A program made the position numbers and the translations under genes. A stretch of DNA of 64,000 bases from Halorhodospira halochloris (GTDB lineage: Bacteria; Pseudomonadota; Gammaproteobacteria; Nitrococcales; Halorhodospiraceae): NCBI RefSeq assembly GCF_002356555.2, contig NZ_AP017372.2, positions 2,086,501 to 2,150,500 of the forward strand. Direction: 5' to 3'. Positions 40,964-48,674 of this stretch are shown piece after piece. Position 1 is the first letter of the stretch. Each line of letters starts with the position of its first letter. The notes beneath the pieces are model-generated. The model worked only from the letters and a program-made list of their open reading frames with translations. It did not search any database and was not told the origin of the DNA.

Positions 40964-42046
40964 TTATGCCTCTATGCCCAACAGCCAGGCGGCCAGGCTG
41001 AAATAGATCAGTAGGGCACTGAAGTCTTTGATGGTAGTGATAAAGGGGTCAGCACCCGGAGCATGATCGAAGCCGAGCTTGAGCAGCACCCAGGGCAAGA
41101 GAAAACCCAAGACGCAGGCCAAGACCACTGCAGCGAATAGAGACAAGCCGATGACCGGCCCCAGCATAGGCATATCGTTAGGCAGTCCCTGCCAGAAATA
41201 GGCAATCAAGCCACCAGCAAGACCCAATACTGCGCCGAGCATCACGCCGACTGCTAACTCACGGAGTATGTGGTAACGGAAGAAGCGTTCCAAGCGGATA
41301 TGACCCAGGGCAACCCCGCGGGCGAAGATAGTTGAAGACTGGGTACCTACATTACCTCCCATATCCATGATTACCGGCACGAATATGGCTAGAGCCACCA
41401 GCGCTTCAAGCACACCTTCAAAGTGCTCGACTACCCCGCCTACAGCCATACCGCCGGCCAATGCTACGCACAAGAAAGCGAGTCGAACCCCAAATGGGTA
41501 CTTCAATGATCCCTGGGTCAGCCGTTCGCTACGGACAATCTCTTGCGCCCGGGTAAGGCTGCCGACCCCGGCCTTTTTGTAAACGTCCTCCGAGGCCTCT
41601 TCCTCAAGCACATCCATTGCATCGTCGAAGCGAATAATGCCAGCCAGGTGGTGCTGCTCATCCAGCACAGGCAGTATTGGTAGATCGCGCCGCTGCAACA
41701 GTCGAGCCGCCTGTTCGCGGTCTTCGTCATTATATACGTAGAGGTCTGCTCCCGTTGCTAGCTCCTTGGCGCTGACTTGGGGATCGCTACGCAGTGCTTC
41801 AGCCAGGCGGACAAACCCTTGATAGCGGTTGTCGCTATCAATCACACAGACTACCGCGGTTACTTGAGCATCTAACGAGCTATTGCGCACCTGCTCGATT
41901 ATGTCGGCGGCAGTCTTATCGGAAGTCACTGCTAGGTAATCATCGTGCATTACCTCATGCACCGGGTTGTGAGTCGTTATACCATGCGCATCAATAGCGC
42001 TCGCTATACCGACACTATGAATCTCAGTCATGCTGTTATTAGTCAT
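40964..42046 (-). CDS. mgtE: MgtE-family magnesium transporter (short form)
   Basis: A 360-residue Mg2+ channel/transporter. It has tandem CBS domains (about 25-150), a connecting helix, then the five-helix pore domain (about 180-358) with PVIMDMGGNVGTQSS, the MgtE signature near the ion path. The superhelical N-domain of longer MgtE proteins is absent. AGGGAG lies 8 bp upstream of the ATG. A terminator-like stem and a long conserved leader element lie upstream (42.1-42.5 kb), suggesting attenuation control. Confidence 0.92.
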   Translation of the reverse strand: MTNNSMTEIHSVGIASAIDAHGITTHNPVHEVMHDDYLAVTSDKTAADIIEQVRNSSLDAQVTAVVCVIDSDNRYQGFVRLAEALRSDPQVSAKELATGADLYVYNDEDREQAARLLQRRDLPILPVLDEQHHLAGIIRFDDAMDVLEEEASEDVYKKAGVGSLTRAQEIVRSERLTQGSLKYPFGVRLAFLCVALAGGMAVGGVVEHFEGVLEALVALAIFVPVIMDMGGNVGTQSSTIFARGVALGHIRLERFFRYHILRELAVGVMLGAVLGLAGGLIAYFWQGLPNDMPMLGPVIGLSLFAAVVLACVLGFLLPWVLLKLGFDHAPGADPFITTIKDFSALLIYFSLAAWLLGIEA

Positions 42047-42110
42047 GGCAAAATCTCCCTCTCGAGTCTTTATCTCGCTGTCGAGATATTTTTGATAAAA
42101 AAGAGCCCGA

Positions 42111-42162
42111 GGGGGTTTTTGTCTAAATTAAGCAGATCTTGCATACTTAGACAAAAATCCCC
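42111..42162 (-). terminator. Terminator-like stem-loop in the mgtE leader
   Basis: 16-nt arms (GGGGATTTTTGTCTAA / TTAGACAAAAACCCCC on the minus strand, one mismatch) are followed after 8 nt by TTTTTT. It lies between the conserved leader element and the mgtE start. The upstream arm recurs at the decayed duplicate (about 48075-48103). Confidence 0.55.
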
Positions 42163-42221
42163 TAACACCCCTGATTTATCAGGAGCTAAAATAGACCCTT
42201 TAATGACGTAGCACAGACCAA

Positions 42222-42481
42222 TTTATCTGCAGCAAAACAGCCTAAACAGGCACACGCTGCAGATAGTTATATCCGCTGCCACGACTTACACTCTGAATGT
42301 CTTGAGGAGATCCCCAGGTCGGCGCCTGACCTGGAGGCACTAATCCGCGAGGGAGGGAGGCTTCAGGCAGGCTTTCCGACCCGGCAAGCTCCGTCAAAAC
42401 GGTGTGCTCGGGTCCAATTTGTACTTCGACTACTCGGGTCGTCCATCAGCGCTTTTCTGGTTACCTCCTTAGATTTCCAAA
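42222..42481 (-). ncRNA. Candidate structured leader element of mgtE, copy 1
   Basis: About 260 nt conserved with a second copy at 48124-48368. On the minus strand, the orientation leading into mgtE, several stems can be drawn: GACCCG..CGGGTC enclosing CCGT..ACGG, and CCAGGTC/GACCTGG, whose second-copy equivalent is CCAGG/CCTGG with a changed loop. A 27-codon frame (42363-42446) is conserved between copies but lacks a well-spaced ribosome site. No match to the M-box was recognised. The rest of 42482-42779 holds no gene. It may be a regulatory RNA or leader peptide; function unproven. Confidence 0.4.
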
Positions 42482-42779
42482 TACCGCGCACAATCCTACT
42501 CAACCTTGTTGCATAACTCAAGGGGCCAAAGATGAAATTCTCTTTACAATTGACGACCGATGCGAATTAAGAGCGACAAACTTATTTCCGAGTAACAATG
42601 CGAAACTTCTGGGGATGCCCTATTTCTCATCACTTGTAACATCTTTACAGGACTACTCCTGAGGTTTGCCGTAGCCAGCACACGCAGTCAGCATAAGCAT
42701 AACTGAATTCGATTTAATTTGTAGTGATGTTTCGTCGAGTGATAAAGTCATATTTGATCGATACCAAAGCCCAACACTG

Positions 42780-45668
42780 ATGAGAACACGCCCTATGGAA
42801 ACTCGGAAGGGCTTTCCGAGGCAGGCTAGCCAGCACCAAGGTCCCAGTCAGGAGAGCATGGAGTTTAGGCTTGCGCTGCTCCAAGAAGTGGCTTGCGCAG
42901 GGTTCTGGGAGTACGACCTGTGCAGCGGGCAAGTGAAGGCTGATGTGCAATTATTTGCCCTTTACGGCAGTTCACCTTCGACAGATTCTGATACCGGCAA
43001 TACCGCTTCGTCTCTTGATGCTCTGCGCCAGCATGTCCACCCCGACGACCTACCTAGAGTTGAGATGCATTTGCGGGAGTTTTGCGAGCGCCCTCAACCA
43101 TGGAATTTGACTTACCGTATAATACGCAATGACGGACTTCTCCGGCATTTTCGCTCGGTGGGACGGGTGGAGAGCGATGCGCAAGGAGAGCCTCACCGAT
43201 TAATATGCCTTGAACAGGATATCACCGATTATCAGGAGACATTACAGGCGCTGCTCGAGCGCCAACGCCAACTCGATACCATTTTTTACCGAACAAGCAA
43301 AATCAGCCTGATCCAGGGCGGCCTAGACGGCGTAATCCAAGATGCCAGCCTGGGGGCAGAGGCACTATTTGGCTACCCGCGCGAAGAACTCATCGGACAG
43401 AGCGTAAACGTGCTCTACCCTGATGGGGAACAGAGTATCCCTGCCGACCTCATAGAACGTCTGCACCAAACCGGTCAGGAAGTAGCCGAAGAGGTTAGAC
43501 ACGTACACCGCTCCGGGACTGAGTTCCCGGCCCTGCTAAACCTAGTCCCAATCCATGATGAAGAACACCAATTGGTTGGCGTAATCGGAGTCTGCATGGA
43601 CCTTAGCGAGCAGGCAGCAGAGCGGGAGCGTTACCGCATGGCCCAAGAGGCAGCCCGATTTGGGATCTGGGAGTGGAATCCCGAGCACGACGAAGTCCAC
43701 TGGGACGAGGCTACCTGGCGCATGCTCGGTTACGATCTAACCTCGAAACAGCGACTAAGGTTTTCCGACTGGCGAGCACAGGTGCACCCCGAAGATCTGG
43801 CTGAGGTCGAGCCTGTAGTCCTGGAGCATATCAAGCAAGGCACCCCCTTCACCATCGAATATCGCTACTATCGCGCTGATGGCAGCTGGCTTTGGGTACA
43901 GGCGAGAGGCCAAATCGTCAAGCACACCCCGGATGGCCGACCACAGCTGCTGATAGGCACCCATGTCGAAATTGAGCAGCTTAAACATACTGAACATGAG
44001 CTGCGTCTGCGTGAACAAGAACTCCAGCAAGCGGCAATAATTTTCGAGGAGTCGCGAGAAGGGATTGTCATCGCTGACAGTGACGCCCGTATCATCACCA
44101 CCAACCGCGCCTTTACCGAGATTACCGGCTATCCCGAGGAGCAAGCCATAGGGTGGCGCCCGCAGGACCTACTGGAGTCTGGCTACCACGATGAAGCCTT
44201 TTTTGAGGCCCTGTGGCAGGCAGTAGATGAACTCGGCACATGGACCGGCGAGATGTGGGGGCGTCGCCGAGACGGGAAGATTTATTCCGAATGGACAACC
44301 ATCCGCAAGCTGCACGACGAGCAATACAACCAAACCTACTATGTAATCATCTTCGCCGAAACCACTGACATCAAGGAGTACCAGCAGCAGCTCGAGCACA
44401 TCCTGTATGTTGACCCACTAACCGAACTACCCAACCGCACGCTCTTTTGGAGCCGCCTGGAACAGGCCCTGCGCCAAAAACACAATAACAGTATATTGGC
44501 CGTACTCCTTGCAGATTTCCGCAGTTTTGGGGAACTCAATTACAGCCTGGGGCACGCGGCCGGTGATCACGCCCTCCGGCTCATCGGCAAGCGCTTTGGT
44601 GAGGCAGTGGACCAGACGGCTACCGTTGCCAGACTGAGTGGCGATGAGTTCGCAGTTCTGTTACCGCAACTTAGAAACCCAGACGAGGCAGCAATCGCCG
44701 CTGAACGGCTTCTAGCCACTGTGGAGGAACCGGTACCGTTTGATGGCACTGAGATTCCGCTCTCCATGTGCCTCGGCGTTGGCATTGCCGCACAGGAACC
44801 GGCCAGCGCCGCCACAATCATGGAGCAGGCCAACGCCGCCCTGCGTGAAGCCAAGCGCGAGGGCGTTGGATGCCGCTTCTACAGTGAGGAGCTTACGCAA
44901 CGTGCCCGCGACCATGTACAACTTGCCTCCGATATGCGCCGCGCACTTGATGCGGACCAATTTGTGATCCACTACCAACCGCAGGTAGACCTCGTCTCTG
45001 GCCGCTGGTGTGGCCTTGAAGCCCTCTTACGCTGGGATCACCCGGATCATGGACCTATTTCGCCAGCGCGTTTCATTCCGGTAGCCGAACGCAGCGGTCT
45101 CATTGGCCGCCTAGGGACATGGGTCCTTGAGCGAGCCTGCCGAGAATATCAGGAACTGCGCGCAAAGGGACACGACTGGGGCAGCGTGGCGGTCAACATA
45201 ACTGCGCCTGAACTGGCTGAACCGGCCTTCACTGACCGCGTGCTTGAGACCCTTGAGCGCACCTCGCTACCCCCGAGCTGCCTGGAATTGGAGATTACCG
45301 AAAGCCTCTGGGTCAACACAGATCCTAAGACCGTCGAGACCTTAGAGCGATTGCGCCGGCATGGTGTTTCGGTGGCGGTGGATGACTTCGGTACCGGCTA
45401 CTCGGCACTGAGCTACCTCAAGGACCTTCCCGTCGACAGGATCAAGATCGATCGCTCCTTCATTCACGCCTTGGAACACGAATCCCGCGCCACTACCATC
45501 ACCGATGCCATACTCGCCTTGGGCCAAAGCCTAGGACTGACCGTAGTCGCCGAGGGGATTGAAACTAGGGAGCAGGAGGCTTACCTGCGCGAGGCGGGGT
45601 GCGAAAGAGGACAAGGATTTTACTACGCCCGGCCGGCGCCTTTGGATGCACTGCTCTTATGCTGCTAA
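42780..45668 (+). CDS. Multi-PAS GGDEF-EAL c-di-GMP protein
   Basis: A 962-residue soluble protein with about four PAS/PAC domains (about 27-525), a GGDEF domain (about 540-695) and an EAL domain (about 715-955). The cyclase site reads SGDEF instead of GGDEF, so cyclase activity is doubtful. The phosphodiesterase site is intact (EALLRW, ESLW, DDFGTGYS, KIDRSFI, VAEGIE). Most likely a PAS-controlled c-di-GMP hydrolase. There is no clear ribosome site at the ATG; Met at codon 6 or 27 could be the true start. Confidence 0.9.
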   Translation: MRTRPMETRKGFPRQASQHQGPSQESMEFRLALLQEVACAGFWEYDLCSGQVKADVQLFALYGSSPSTDSDTGNTASSLDALRQHVHPDDLPRVEMHLREFCERPQPWNLTYRIIRNDGLLRHFRSVGRVESDAQGEPHRLICLEQDITDYQETLQALLERQRQLDTIFYRTSKISLIQGGLDGVIQDASLGAEALFGYPREELIGQSVNVLYPDGEQSIPADLIERLHQTGQEVAEEVRHVHRSGTEFPALLNLVPIHDEEHQLVGVIGVCMDLSEQAAERERYRMAQEAARFGIWEWNPEHDEVHWDEATWRMLGYDLTSKQRLRFSDWRAQVHPEDLAEVEPVVLEHIKQGTPFTIEYRYYRADGSWLWVQARGQIVKHTPDGRPQLLIGTHVEIEQLKHTEHELRLREQELQQAAIIFEESREGIVIADSDARIITTNRAFTEITGYPEEQAIGWRPQDLLESGYHDEAFFEALWQAVDELGTWTGEMWGRRRDGKIYSEWTTIRKLHDEQYNQTYYVIIFAETTDIKEYQQQLEHILYVDPLTELPNRTLFWSRLEQALRQKHNNSILAVLLADFRSFGELNYSLGHAAGDHALRLIGKRFGEAVDQTATVARLSGDEFAVLLPQLRNPDEAAIAAERLLATVEEPVPFDGTEIPLSMCLGVGIAAQEPASAATIMEQANAALREAKREGVGCRFYSEELTQRARDHVQLASDMRRALDADQFVIHYQPQVDLVSGRWCGLEALLRWDHPDHGPISPARFIPVAERSGLIGRLGTWVLERACREYQELRAKGHDWGSVAVNITAPELAEPAFTDRVLETLERTSLPPSCLELEITESLWVNTDPKTVETLERLRRHGVSVAVDDFGTGYSALSYLKDLPVDRIKIDRSFIHALEHESRATTITDAILALGQSLGLTVVAEGIETREQEAYLREAGCERGQGFYYARPAPLDALLLCC

Positions 45669-45715
45669 CTACTCCTTTTTCCTATACAAACCTACCCGGA
45701 GTTATCATCCACCCC

Positions 45716-45883
45716 GGCGTGGAGCAATCCTCGACAGCAGAGGAGATCAATCGCAACATCACCAATATCCGGGATGTCGCCAATGAGACCCAGAACAGCT
45801 TCGAGCGTGTCCAGCAAGCGGTCGAGAAACAAAAGAGGCTCGTTGAACAACTCAACGAGGAACTTGCGAGGATTCAGTTTTAG
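45716..45883 (+). pseudogene. Remnant of a methyl-accepting chemotaxis protein (C-terminus)
   Basis: The last 55 codons of an MCP signalling domain are readable (GVEQSSTAEEINRNI, then a coiled coil ending [11 protein letters not shown]). No upstream part is present, and the preceding bases belong to the c-di-GMP gene. A gene fragment left by deletion. Confidence 0.75.
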
Positions 45884-45906
45884 CAACGTCGAGAACTAAA
45901 CATAAT

Positions 45907-46362
45907 ATGAGAATATGGGTTGATGCCGATGCCTGTCCGGTGGTGATTCGCGAGATCCTCTTCCGGGCTGCCGAAAGGACTCGGGTGGAACTAATCCTAG
46001 TGGCTAACCACGCCATCCGCGTTCCGCCATCGCAGGTGATAAAATCCATACAGGTTGGCGCCGGATTCGATGTGGCCGACCACAAGATAGTACAAAGCGC
46101 CGCGCCAGGGGATCTGGTCGTGACCGCCGACATACCTCTGGCCGCTGAGATTATAGAGGCTGGCGCCCTAGCGCTGAACCCCCGCGGTGAATTGTATACC
46201 TCGGAGACCGTCAGGGAACGGCTTAACATGCGCGATTTCATGGACACCATGCGCGCTAGTGGAGTTGAGACCGGCGGAGCTGCAGCGCTTAGCCAGCGCG
46301 ACCGGCAAGCATTCGCTAATCAGCTAGATCGCATCCTCGCTCAGCGCGATAAAGACATATAG
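45907..46362 (+). CDS. yaiI: YaiI/YqxD family protein (UPF0178, DUF188)
   Basis: A 151-residue protein with the family N-terminus [15 protein letters not shown] and the GADFDVAD-like [13 protein letters not shown], plus [11 protein letters not shown]. The fold is PIN-like, suggesting nuclease ancestry, but no activity is established. Lone gene; its 3' end is 4 bp from the convergent Na/phosphate symporter. Confidence 0.9.
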
Positions 46363-46366
46363 CAGT

Positions 46367-47971
46367 TTAACCATCTTTATCCATAAGGCTATCTTCTTCA
46401 GCCCCCATCTCTTCGTGGCAATAGACATAGACCACCCCGCTCAGGCGTCGGTTAAGCTGTTGGAAGCCGTCTAATACCTCCCAAGCTGGATAAGGCAGAC
46501 CAGGCTGATAGCGCTTGGTATGGATCAGCCAGCGACTGATCTCCTGCTTACGAGTTAAAATCTTACGCCCTAAGTCGGGGCGCTCGCGCAAGAGCATCCG
46601 AGCCACGGTATTCATTTGCTTGGTAAAGCGTGCTGCGGCTTCGAGAATCAGCGGTCGGGCAACTTCTACCGCACTGCGATCGTACTCTAACAGGCGGCCA
46701 ACTTGGTCATGCATTTCGTGACCGAGGGTGCGCACAATCATCGGCACCTCACGCATAAAATCATCTAGGGTATCTTTCAATGCTTGATCTTCTGGACTCA
46801 GCGAGTCGTCGGCGATGGCGTCTAGAAACTCGGTCAGCTCGCTGCATACCTGCTGGATTTCGCGTGAACGATTATCGATTTCCGCGGCCAATTCAGCAGA
46901 TAAATGGCCCTGGCGCAGCCCCTGCATAACGCTCTCCCCAGTCAGATGTAAGGAATCGAACACCCGCAAGGTTTCGCGCATAGCGGCATTGATAGCCAGG
47001 GTATGGTTTTGCAGTAATAAAGGGTCGAGGCGCGCAATAGTGGGCCGCCCCGGGCTTTCCGGCTCGGGAGTAAGGGCGCTGACTAGGCGCTCCAGGGTCG
47101 GCACAGCCAGAACTGCCAAGCAGGCCAATGCATTGAAAAGCGTGTGAGCCCAAGCGGCCTGCTGCGGCATGCCCCCTATCCAGTCTTGCGGCTGCAGCGC
47201 TGGAAGGGTGAACAAGATCAAAGCTAGAGCTATCGCCAGGGGCACCTTGACCATAAGCACAGCCAACCCTAGACGGCGACCATGCACATCTGCCCAGCCG
47301 GCGATCAACACAGTCAAACACAGGCCGATGTTAGCCCCCAAAACCCAGAGCAACAGCATCTCCAGACTAATCTGCCCACCTGCCACCAAGGCCAGCGCCA
47401 CTGCAATGGAGGCGGTTGCACTCTGAACCAGCAGGGTTAGCAGCATAGCTGCGATCATAAGCAGCAGCGGCAGCTGCGCTAGGGCTTCAAAAAGAGCTTC
47501 TACAGCTGGATCCGAGCCTAGAGTAACGGCTGCATCGCTTAGCAGCCCCATACCCAGGAGAATAAAACCGAAGGCCAACAAGGACTGGCCAACCCCACGG
47601 AGCCGCCGCGCCTCCAAGAAGAGAAAAAGAAACGCTCCCACAGCAAAGAACAGGCTGTCATAATCTTGGAGGTCAAAAGAGACTAGCTGAACCAGCACCG
47701 TACTGCCGAGTTGAGCGCCGAGCAACACCGCTAGTGCATTCCGCCAAGAGACGCTGCCACGCCGCGTCATCTGCACCGAGAGCATAGCAGTGGCAGTGGA
47801 GGAAGGCATAAGGGCACCACCCGCCACCCCGCCGGCGAGTGCTCGGACGCGAGTGCGGGTAAACCCTTGCAACCAGTCGAGCAGGTCACCCCCCATAGCC
47901 CGCGCAAACCCCCTGCGCAGGAAGTTTAAGCCAAATATAACAAGCAAGATTCCGGCTATGAGATCGATCAA
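46367..47971 (-). CDS. Na/Pi-cotransporter family protein with PhoU-like domain
   Basis: A 534-residue protein of the NptA/YjbB type. The N-terminal half has two repeated membrane blocks (LMPSSTATAML and VQSATASIAVAL, the QSS-type repeats). The C-terminal half (about 315-500) is a soluble PhoU-like helical domain. It probably moves phosphate with sodium, possibly as an exporter like YjbB. The leader and decayed mgtE-locus duplicate lie upstream (48 kb). Confidence 0.88.
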   Translation of the reverse strand: MIDLIAGILLVIFGLNFLRRGFARAMGGDLLDWLQGFTRTRVRALAGGVAGGALMPSSTATAMLSVQMTRRGSVSWRNALAVLLGAQLGSTVLVQLVSFDLQDYDSLFFAVGAFLFLFLEARRLRGVGQSLLAFGFILLGMGLLSDAAVTLGSDPAVEALFEALAQLPLLLMIAAMLLTLLVQSATASIAVALALVAGGQISLEMLLLWVLGANIGLCLTVLIAGWADVHGRRLGLAVLMVKVPLAIALALILFTLPALQPQDWIGGMPQQAAWAHTLFNALACLAVLAVPTLERLVSALTPEPESPGRPTIARLDPLLLQNHTLAINAAMRETLRVFDSLHLTGESVMQGLRQGHLSAELAAEIDNRSREIQQVCSELTEFLDAIADDSLSPEDQALKDTLDDFMREVPMIVRTLGHEMHDQVGRLLEYDRSAVEVARPLILEAAARFTKQMNTVARMLLRERPDLGRKILTRKQEISRWLIHTKRYQPGLPYPAWEVLDGFQQLNRRLSGVVYVYCHEEMGAEEDSLMDKDG

Positions 47972-47995
47972 CTGCCTTGCCTCGTCCCTAAATTA

Positions 47996-48103
47996 AACCA
48001 CACGGTTGAATACCAACGCCGGAGGCATAGCAACTACCCCCGCTCCCTTCATTTTGATCCAGACGGTTTTGCTTACTTAACAAAAATCCCTTAAGGGAGT
48101 ATC
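47996..48103 (-). pseudogene. Remnant of a duplicated outer-membrane-protein/mgtE locus
   Basis: 47996-48066 aligns with the 3' end of the gene at 40225 (GAATACCAACGCC, CTTCATTTTGATCCAG versus GAATACCAACCCC, CTTCATTTTCGATCCAG) but is frame-damaged. About 8 bp further, 48074-48103 matches one arm of the mgtE leader stem (TACTTAACAAAAATCCC versus TACTTAGACAAAAATCCC). mgtE and most of the second gene are missing between them. Confidence 0.7.
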
Positions 48104-48123
48104 TGAAACTTTCTCGGAGCCAC

Positions 48124-48368
48124 TTTATCTGCAGCTAAAAACCACAACAGATAGTGATGCAGATCAGCACATCTGCTGCTGCAAATCACACCAAAAAGTT
48201 TTGAGGAGTTCTCCAGGCCGGGGCCAACCTGGAGGCATTAACCCGAAAGGGAGGGAGGGTTCAGGCAGGCATTCCGACCCGGCGAGCTCCGTCAAAACGG
48301 TTAGCTCGGGTCCAGTTTGTACTTCGACTACTTGGATCGCCCATCAGCTCTTTGCTGGTTACCTCTTA
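48124..48368 (-). ncRNA. Conserved leader element, copy 2 (orphan)
   Basis: Second copy of the mgtE leader element. The strongest block is 48199-48368 (for example AGGGAGGGAGG, TCAGGCAGGC, CCGTCAAAACGG, GTACTTCGACTACT). Changes often keep pairing: CGAGCT/AGCTCG is a full stem here. The 27-codon frame is at 48261-48344 (MGDPSSRSTNWTRAN...). It now leads into a decayed locus and then the Na/phosphate symporter. 48369-48512 contains only the 16-bp palindrome TGGCCATTAATGGCCA (48492-48507). Confidence 0.4.
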
Positions 48369-48512
48369 GGACTTCTTGATAACGTGCGGAAGTTTACATA
48401 ATTTGCTTGTACAATTCAAAGGAGACATCAGCTTATCGGCAGTTTGCTTGTGCAGAGATTTTCTAGGTACTCTTTGAGAGGCTTCTAAAACTGGCCATTA
48501 ATGGCCAATTGT

Positions 48513-48674
48513 CTCCGGGGAGTCTTTAAATTCCCCCTGAGCCACTCCAACTGCCCCGGTGTGGAGGTCTTGGCGCCAGGGATGGCGCCATGAAGCCTCC
48601 AGGGATCGATCTACGGCGTCCTCCACACCGGGGCAGTTGGAGTGGCTCAGGGGGAATTTAAAGACTCCCCGGAG
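48513..48674. repeat. Palindromic element P12 (longest, perfect arms)
   Basis: 162 bp; the arms extend over 50 bp without mismatch (CTCCGGGGAGTCTTTAAATT outside). Copy-specific GAGCCACTCCAACTG is mirrored by CAGTTGGAGTGGCTC. The core has GATCGATCTACGG in place of GATGGATTCACGG. It ends 34 bp upstream of the MBL-HhH gene. Confidence 0.97.

Follow-up and report, generated by a model that had tools for sequence, protein, structure and literature searches.

What controls mgtE, a magnesium transporter gene of Halorhodospira halochloris, and is the signal read by an RNA or by the ribosome? In the 64,000-nt stretch analysed here (the window; positions 2,086,501-2,150,500 of the forward strand of NZ_AP017372.2, assembly GCF_002356555.2, with all positions below counted within it), an element of about 250 nt occurs twice, and one of the copies stands before mgtE. 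A sequence-only reading of the window had taken the element for a conserved leader, and for a candidate metal-responsive attenuator or riboswitch. The best reading of the analysis presented here is that both copies are leaders of transcription units and encode a short regulatory peptide, whose translation probably decides the expression of mgtE.

A repeated leader with a conserved open reading frame

The two copies form an ungapped direct repeat of 196 nt (42329-42524 and 48227-48422) with 80% identity, far beyond chance, and their similarity spans about 250 nt when small insertions and deletions are included. A blastn search of the whole 2.83 Mb genome gave exactly these two places, which bears out the duplication proposed earlier. 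On the minus strand of both copies we identified an open reading frame (ORF) of 27 codons that the sequence-only reading had overlooked, and on the same strand copy 1 leads to mgtE and copy 2 to a gene of the Na+/Pi cotransporter family (Table 1). A plus-strand reading of the repeat was rejected, since the promoter, the ORF and the order of the genes each point to the minus strand.

The ORF is conserved: starting with ATG and 25-27 codons long, it is present in all eight leaders found in the order Nitrococcales, and the best-kept block of the element on this strand, ATG GAY GAY CCN AGT AGT CGA, is its start. Among these eight leaders, codon 2 is GAC or GAA, with GGC only in copy 2, and codons 3 (GAC/GAT) and 4 (CCT/CCG/CCA) vary in the third position only. 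Acidic residues and a proline directly follow the start, as M[DE]DP in seven leaders and as GDP in copy 2. The five leaders with 26 codons end in TGA, TAG or TAA at one aligned place, and their summed pairwise differences at codon positions 1, 2 and 3 are 63, 74 and 101, a modest third-position excess in counts that are not independent of each other.

The following codons 5-7, AGT AGT CGA, are kept in all eight leaders, except for a change of codon 5 from AGT to TGT in G019. Codon usage does not explain this near fixation (AGT makes up 17% of the serine codons and CGA 8% of the arginine codons in the 29 long ORFs of the window), and the codons may serve a small predicted hairpin. A run of more than two codons for a single residue, as would mark an amino-acid attenuator, is absent from the eight leaders, AGT AGT being the longest. 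At the other end of the ORF, CCUGCCUG is kept across reading frames: the order reads it as PA-stop and Billgrantia as CL-stop, and in a Halomonas metagenome-assembled genome (MAG) it comes just after the stop codon. From these sequence comparisons, the end of the ORF appears to be constrained as RNA, and its start as peptide.

Table 1. Features of the two leaders and of the genes behind them, with the peptides encoded by the six other leaders of the order
Feature	Position in the window	Strand	Description
Leader core, copy 1	42300-42471	minus	match of 146.5 bits to RNA model R1; part of the R1 training set
Leader core, copy 2	48199-48369	minus	match of 150 bits to R1; part of the R1 training set
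Promoter-like TTGAGT-N17-TAGGAT	42493-42521	minus	46 nt before the leader ATG of copy 1
Leader ORF 1	42363-42446	minus	copy 1; 27 codons, MDDPSSRSTNWTRAHRFDGACRVGKPA (MDDPSSR...), stop TGA
Leader ORF 2	48261-48344	minus	copy 2; 27 codons, MGDPSSRSTNWTRANRFDGARRVGMPA (MGDPSSR...), stop TGA
Hairpin SL-A within the ORF	42378-42414	minus	inner stem CCGU/ACGG, outer stem GACCC/GGGUC
GCCUGCCUGAAG over the stop codon	42361-42372	minus	predicted to pair with the SL-C 5' arm and thereby to block SL-C
Hairpin SL-C (CCAGGU...ACCUGG)	42314-42334	minus	predicted to form with a ribosome positioned over the ORF end
Box GGAUCUCCUC behind SL-C	42304-42313	minus	complementary to the mgtE Shine-Dalgarno sequence; putative role
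Terminator-like hairpin and U6	42097-42163 (17-nt arms 42110-42163)	minus	between leader and mgtE
mgtE	40964-42046	minus	360 aa; CBS domains and MgtE membrane domain; MgtE N domain not reported by Pfam
Na+/Pi cotransporter-family gene (PF02690)	46367-47971	minus	downstream of copy 2
Leader peptide, G006			MDDPSSRSRSPGGEARRAEARRALI
Leader peptide, G020			MDDPSSRMPSLGASRLCGQRPASPPA
Leader peptide, G019			MDDPCSRCWNSGDIRLSGPRPAVLPA
Leader peptide, G029			MDDPSSRSWNSGDIRMSGSRPAVVPA
Leader peptide, G012			MEDPSSRLFSFGEGRSNGCYPAILPA
Leader peptide, G039			MEDPSSRLSQYGESRLCGVFPACLPA

The leader precedes short mgtE genes in the order

A search with the window mgtE gave 84 places in 51 of the 54 genomes of the order, and the upstream regions of 83 of them were read (G020:C32 was left out). 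An M[DE]DPSSR leader lies upstream of every one of the five complete short mgtE genes, those of the window genome, G020, G012, G029 and G039, and upstream of none of the 78 other places. The leaders of copy 2 and of G006 stand on the side of the Na/Pi cotransporter, with two other genes intervening in G006. Two side observations concern these loci: in G019 (G019:C233) the leader is kept before a remnant of mgtE, by eye about its last 17 codons, and in G006 a MgtE membrane domain that has neither CBS nor N domain (L105, 2467-3117) lies near the leader and the Na/Pi cotransporter gene. The N domain of longer MgtE proteins takes part in Mg2+ gating, so that control of expression may matter more for the window MgtE, which is short and lacks this domain.

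With three mismatches allowed, the pattern of the best-kept block matches G006, of the same genus, and G019, G020 and G029 of the order, and a control pattern gave 0 matches in 59 genomes. An RNA model, R1, built from seven of the eight leaders, found the same eight leaders across the order and otherwise six weak matches with E of 0.01-0.09. The only one of these six that was looked at, in G020:C25, lies by eye inside a protein-coding gene and was discarded, and a match of G022 to CATCC with one mismatch was taken as chance. A conclusion on the whole order from a first leader pattern was rejected, as that pattern would have missed the leaders of Billgrantia. In the class, a looser exact pattern matched the window genome and no other of 369 sampled genomes, and the leader is therefore rare in this sample.

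R1 and these searches place the leader upstream of mgtE in other genomes, which answers the question of homologues raised by the sequence-only reading and upholds its link to magnesium transport. The element is indeed a conserved leader, cis-acting on the minus strand and unknown to Rfam. No Rfam family matched the window at gathering score, and the M-box was unmatched at E up to 10 in both repeat stretches in a permissive search, in agreement with the earlier remark that the element does not read like the known M-box. All permissive matches in the two stretches score under the gathering scores of their families, and the strong ones of the second stretch map to an unrelated perfect hairpin (48513-48674). 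Assignment to the M-box or another Rfam family was rejected, with 0 matches at gathering score also in the loci L122, L119, L106 and L113.

Two neighbouring features of the window are recorded here for completeness. The hairpin at 48513-48674 is a perfect 55-nt inverted repeat with a 52-nt spacer, lies between copy 2 and a metallo-beta-lactamase-fold gene, and attracts spurious microRNA matches in Rfam. A PAS-GGDEF-EAL gene (42780-45668) is divergent from copy 1, and we saw no link between it and the leader.

A predicted RNA switch that depends on where the ribosome is

On the alignment of seven sequences, RNAalifold predicted a long fold in which the ORF end is base-paired to the 5' arm of a hairpin further on, and on a trimmed alignment it predicted this very hairpin, SL-C, in place of the long fold. 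The long fold is paired in 83.3% of the alignment cells, and SL-A together with SL-C in 93.3%. Double-change cells and covariation scores are rarely matched by shuffled alignments (0 and 4 of 500; 3 and 1 of 500). As the structures were chosen on the same sequences, this covariation is support rather than proof. The complementary blocks that the sequence-only reading saw in both copies are confirmed by the folds and the pairing analysis, and the stems it asked about are both covarying and alternative, though several covariation measures are not above shuffles.

To follow the effect of a translating ribosome, we calculated partition-function folds of 11 leaders in which a mask of 30 nt, standing for the ribosome, was placed at successive positions on the ORF. 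In 10 of the 11, the predicted probability of SL-C is at most 0.12 without the mask or with the mask on codons 1-5, and at least 0.80 with the mask on codon 27. Folds of the whole leader are similar, except for G039, with an SL-C probability of 0.75 without a ribosome, and L177, with 0.13 when the ribosome is at the stop codon. When the last nine codons and 9 nt were shuffled, SL-C was freed in 36-40 of 40 trials for eight of the 10 leaders that switch, whereas copy 1 and L177, the other two, gave 19 and 24 of 40; shuffling codons 8-19 freed it in 0-21 of 40 trials. In these computations the helices are mutually exclusive, and the predicted formation of SL-C depends on the position of the ribosome on the ORF.

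The same peptide start before mgtE in other haloalkaliphiles

We scanned named genomes with an alignment of short MgtE proteins and took the best 80 of 379 loci, which by name come mostly from saline or alkaline habitats and of which four or five belong to organisms of the order set. A short upstream ORF with a motif of the [DE][DE]P, EPEP or PEPE types in residues 2-11, at most 900 nt from the match, is present in 29 of the 80 loci, 21 of them with a Shine-Dalgarno (SD) sequence. The reverse strand gave 2 such ORFs (0 with SD) and dinucleotide shuffles a mean of 4.8 (0.6 with SD). Among the 78 other mgtE places of the order, 5 have such an ORF (2 with SD), and of these the one in G002 is real and the one in G006 (FDEP, 582 nt from the gene) accidental. 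Relatedness among the loci means that they cannot be counted as independent, and about seven lineages describe the enrichment better than 29 separate events.

The peptides fall into several types. M[DE]DPSSR occurs eight times (Alkalilimnicola, Aquisalimonas, two Ectothiorhodospiraceae MAGs, Billgrantia kenyensis, B. aerodenitrificans, B. desiderata and a Halomonas MAG), and a peptide like MPAPEDDDPGSR eight times in Thioalkalivibrio, where the short ORF has an AGGAGG SD. MPDDPGP is found in T. sulfidiphilus and T. denitrificans, MPDDPEPEPPP in two Ectothiorhodospira, MPDEPEPEPGP in Halorhodospira abdelmalekii, MPDEPEPGP in a gammaproteobacterial MAG, and MDEPPSR, MDEPPSC or MEEPHSC in four Balneolaceae. 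R1 finds four Billgrantia/Halomonas mgtE leaders outside its training set, with E from 7.3e-16 to 9.7e-13; beyond these four Halomonadaceae and the training organisms, it finds nothing at E <0.04 in the 68 remaining loci of the 80. By this comparison, the mgtE leaders of the other haloalkaliphiles are unrelated as RNA and share an acidic-acidic-proline peptide start.

Two further loci deserve mention. In G002 (L025, 799-1760), whose leader is as in the H. abdelmalekii locus L143, the N-domain part and the CBS/membrane part of MgtE lie in different frames, and the leader MPDEPEPEPGPRLSRIRRERG... has a TTG start behind GGGAGG. In a member of the Nitriliruptoria (L173), a GTG-started MPDDGEQPSRHRL... 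with AGGAGG precedes mgtE, which falls outside the strict motif definition and is possibly a related leader in an actinobacterium.

Promoter and candidate elements of the readout

A promoter-like site of the form TTG-N17/18-TA stands 37-51 nt before the ATG in seven of the eight leaders of the order; for these seven, 0 to 51 of 300 shuffles were as good, copy 1 giving 28 of 300. A strict consensus scan listed no promoter for copy 1.

Behind SL-C, the CUCC-rich box could pair with the mgtE SD. This duplex clearly beats shuffled SD regions in three of five cases (0.8-1.6% of shuffles as good), and does not do so clearly in copy 1 (8.2%) and G039 (15.2%). Because non-cognate pairs are often equally strong, and not all cognate pairs beat the shuffles, the pairing does not count here as demonstrated covariation and is put forward as a candidate contact. 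The C-rich box is also compatible with a readout by the termination factor Rho, and nothing beyond that.

The terminator-like stem that the sequence-only reading placed before mgtE is present in part: behind a hairpin with 17-nt arms comes a U6 run at a distance of 56 nt from the mgtE start, while a simple terminator scan of the minus strand of 42040-42560 listed no terminator. By eye, this hairpin and those of L021, L023 and L024 have a U run in the 5' arm and an A run in the 3' arm (UUUUGYCUGA...UCAGACAAAA). At the same place before mgtE, the Balneolaceae loci L171, L179, L180 and L184 have a GUCUCAU/AUGAGAC-like hairpin.

Proposed mechanism and alternatives

We consider it likely that the element is a leader-peptide attenuator and, with less confidence, favour the fuller statement that its signal is Mg2+, acting by way of ribosome destabilization. 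For translation of the ORF, Mg2+-responsive drop-off and the controlled step, we infer the following scheme. Ribosomes would start on M[DE]DP... and, with ample free Mg2+, would reach the end of the ORF and cover CCUGCCUG at the stop codon, so that SL-C could form and expose the CUCC-rich box behind it. This would turn mgtE OFF, by masking of its SD, by loading of Rho, or through the terminator-like hairpin. At low Mg2+, the acidic-acidic-proline start would destabilize the ribosomes and cause early drop-off, after which the ORF end would pair with the 5' arm of SL-C, SL-C would not be made, and mgtE would be ON.

A number of observations weigh against this scheme. AGT AGT CGA is near invariant and can pair with codons 2-3 as a small hairpin, and conservation of the N terminus may for this reason partly be RNA structure. 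The SD-like site (GAGG/GGAG) of the order leaders stands 13-17 nt before the ATG, a longer spacing than usual, and these leaders carry a single DDP or EDP, or GDP in copy 2; di-acidic residues alone are insufficient in the described part of the MgtL work (PMC11282234). Among the mgtE loci beyond the order, 51 of 80 have no motif, several of these having little upstream sequence, and three of the 29 with a motif look accidental (L117, L125, L162). On the RNA side, doubly changed pairs and further pair types are within the shuffle range (150, 467; 139, 154 of 500), copy 1 is the weakest switch (predicted SL-C probabilities of 0.48, 0.12, 0.80 and 0.54 at codons 23, 25, 27 and 28), and the Halomonas MAG leader has SL-C formed at all mask positions. 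The predicted closing of the mgtE SD is also uneven: with a ribosome at the stop rather than the start codon, its accessibility is lower in five of eight leaders, unchanged in one and higher in two.

An attenuator with a translated leader could also respond to another signal, such as slow decoding of AGT AGT CGA, the supply of proline or EF-P, the general rate of translation, or arrest of the nascent peptide near Pro-Ala-stop. The retention of AGT AGT CGA in all leaders of the order but for the TGT of G019, the low share of CGA, and the proline close to the stop codon in most leaders would fit. We consider this rather unlikely, given that AGT is not rare, that Thioalkalivibrio keeps DDPGS(R/S) by other codons, that the residues near the stop shift with the frame while the RNA letters are unchanged, and that the acidic-proline start recurs in unrelated leaders. 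The riboswitch or metal-binding sensor of the sequence-only reading, a new RNA that would bind a metal or metabolite before mgtE and contain the ORF by accident, is in our view quite unlikely. Conserved alternative stems and a strictly invariant AGTAGTCGA are what such an RNA would show, and a candidate before mgtE has been published for Thioalkalivibrio (PMC11109978, in the part available); against it stand a best-kept block that is the start of a short ORF with third-position changes, three different stop codons at one place, a switch predicted to be set by ribosome position through masking of the ORF end, and mgtE leaders of other lineages that share the acidic-acidic-proline start and not the RNA, R1 failing to find them.

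We consider it very unlikely that the element lacks a leader-peptide function and is instead a conserved protein-binding site in RNA or DNA or what is left of a mobile repeat. The presence of two copies at a distance of 6 kb and the palindromic hairpin before mgtE would suit this view; however, the genome has only these two copies, and the copies in the order precede mgtE, the mgtE remnant of G019 or Na/Pi cotransporter loci. A mobile repeat, which the sequence-only reading had named as a possible refutation, is thus not what we find, and a phage or plasmid origin was rejected, since matches in the phage and plasmid collections cover only 8-14% of the query.

A wider generalization of the leader-peptide attenuator is tentative, and we rate it as possible rather than probable: acidic-acidic-proline leaders would act as a general Mg2+ sensor for mgtE across haloalkaliphiles from two or more phyla (Gammaproteobacteria and Balneolaceae), having arisen repeatedly or spread by horizontal transfer, and the ribosome, not an aptamer, would do the sensing. 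This set of leaders would include the Thioalkalivibrio riboswitch candidate, and the Halorhodospira leader, standing also at a Na/Pi cotransporter gene, would join phosphate and magnesium control. If ribosome destabilization holds for the mgtE of halophiles, it would be a general way to read cytoplasmic Mg2+, with several unrelated peptides converging on one start, and the natural variants DDP, EDP, DEPEPEP, DDDP and DEPP could be used to measure what makes a nascent chain destabilizing.

Comparison with known systems

The M-box riboswitch precedes Mg2+ transporter genes, mgtE included. The leader described here likewise stands before a Mg2+ transporter gene, but it has no Rfam match and carries an ORF and a ribosome-position switch instead.

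In the accessible text of the two papers, ribosome destabilization as a Mg2+ sensor is met only for the enterobacterial mgtA and mgtB (PMC11282234, PMC8092293), and a leader peptide for mgtE was not reported among the literature matches listed, seen in part. As described in the former, drop-off at EPDP of MgtL at low Mg2+ permits transcription of mgtA, the acidic residues of MgtL destabilize ribosomes and raise mgtA expression, and the readout is Rho (PMC11282234). As in MgtL, the ORF of copy 1 is short and precedes a Mg2+ transporter gene on the same strand (copy 2 precedes the Na/Pi cotransporter gene), acidic residues and a proline come right after the start, and the RNA fold depends, here by prediction, on the progress of the ribosome. 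The two differ in the transporter (MgtE versus the MgtA ATPase) and in RNA structure, and the motif, one acidic-acidic-Pro in the order leaders versus EPDP, is the only sequence similarity.

MgtQ of Salmonella, in the portion of the report at hand, is an 8-codon ORF between mgtC and mgtB with Asp2, Pro4 and Glu5; its acidic residues reduce translation of MgtQ itself and increase mgtB translation via alternative stem-loops, and its Pro4 codon acts through base pairing (PMC8092293). The leader peptides of the order share with it an acidic residue at position 2 and a proline at position 4, whereas MgtQ is shorter, intergenic and linked to another transporter.

A published case from haloalkaliphiles is the mgtE motif SRC-65-1, with 32 representatives, all in Thioalkalivibrio, and rated a strong riboswitch candidate, whose description, in the part available, mentions no upstream ORF (uORF) (PMC11109978). 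Like it, our leader stands before mgtE in haloalkaliphiles, and the Thioalkalivibrio mgtE loci examined here carry an ORF of the MPAPEDDDPGSR type; the window RNA is a different one, and SRC-65-1 is set beside this ORF by its description only. SRC-65-1 may be such a leader, in which case the published riboswitch candidate would become a uORF and the hunt for a ligand would be directed elsewhere.

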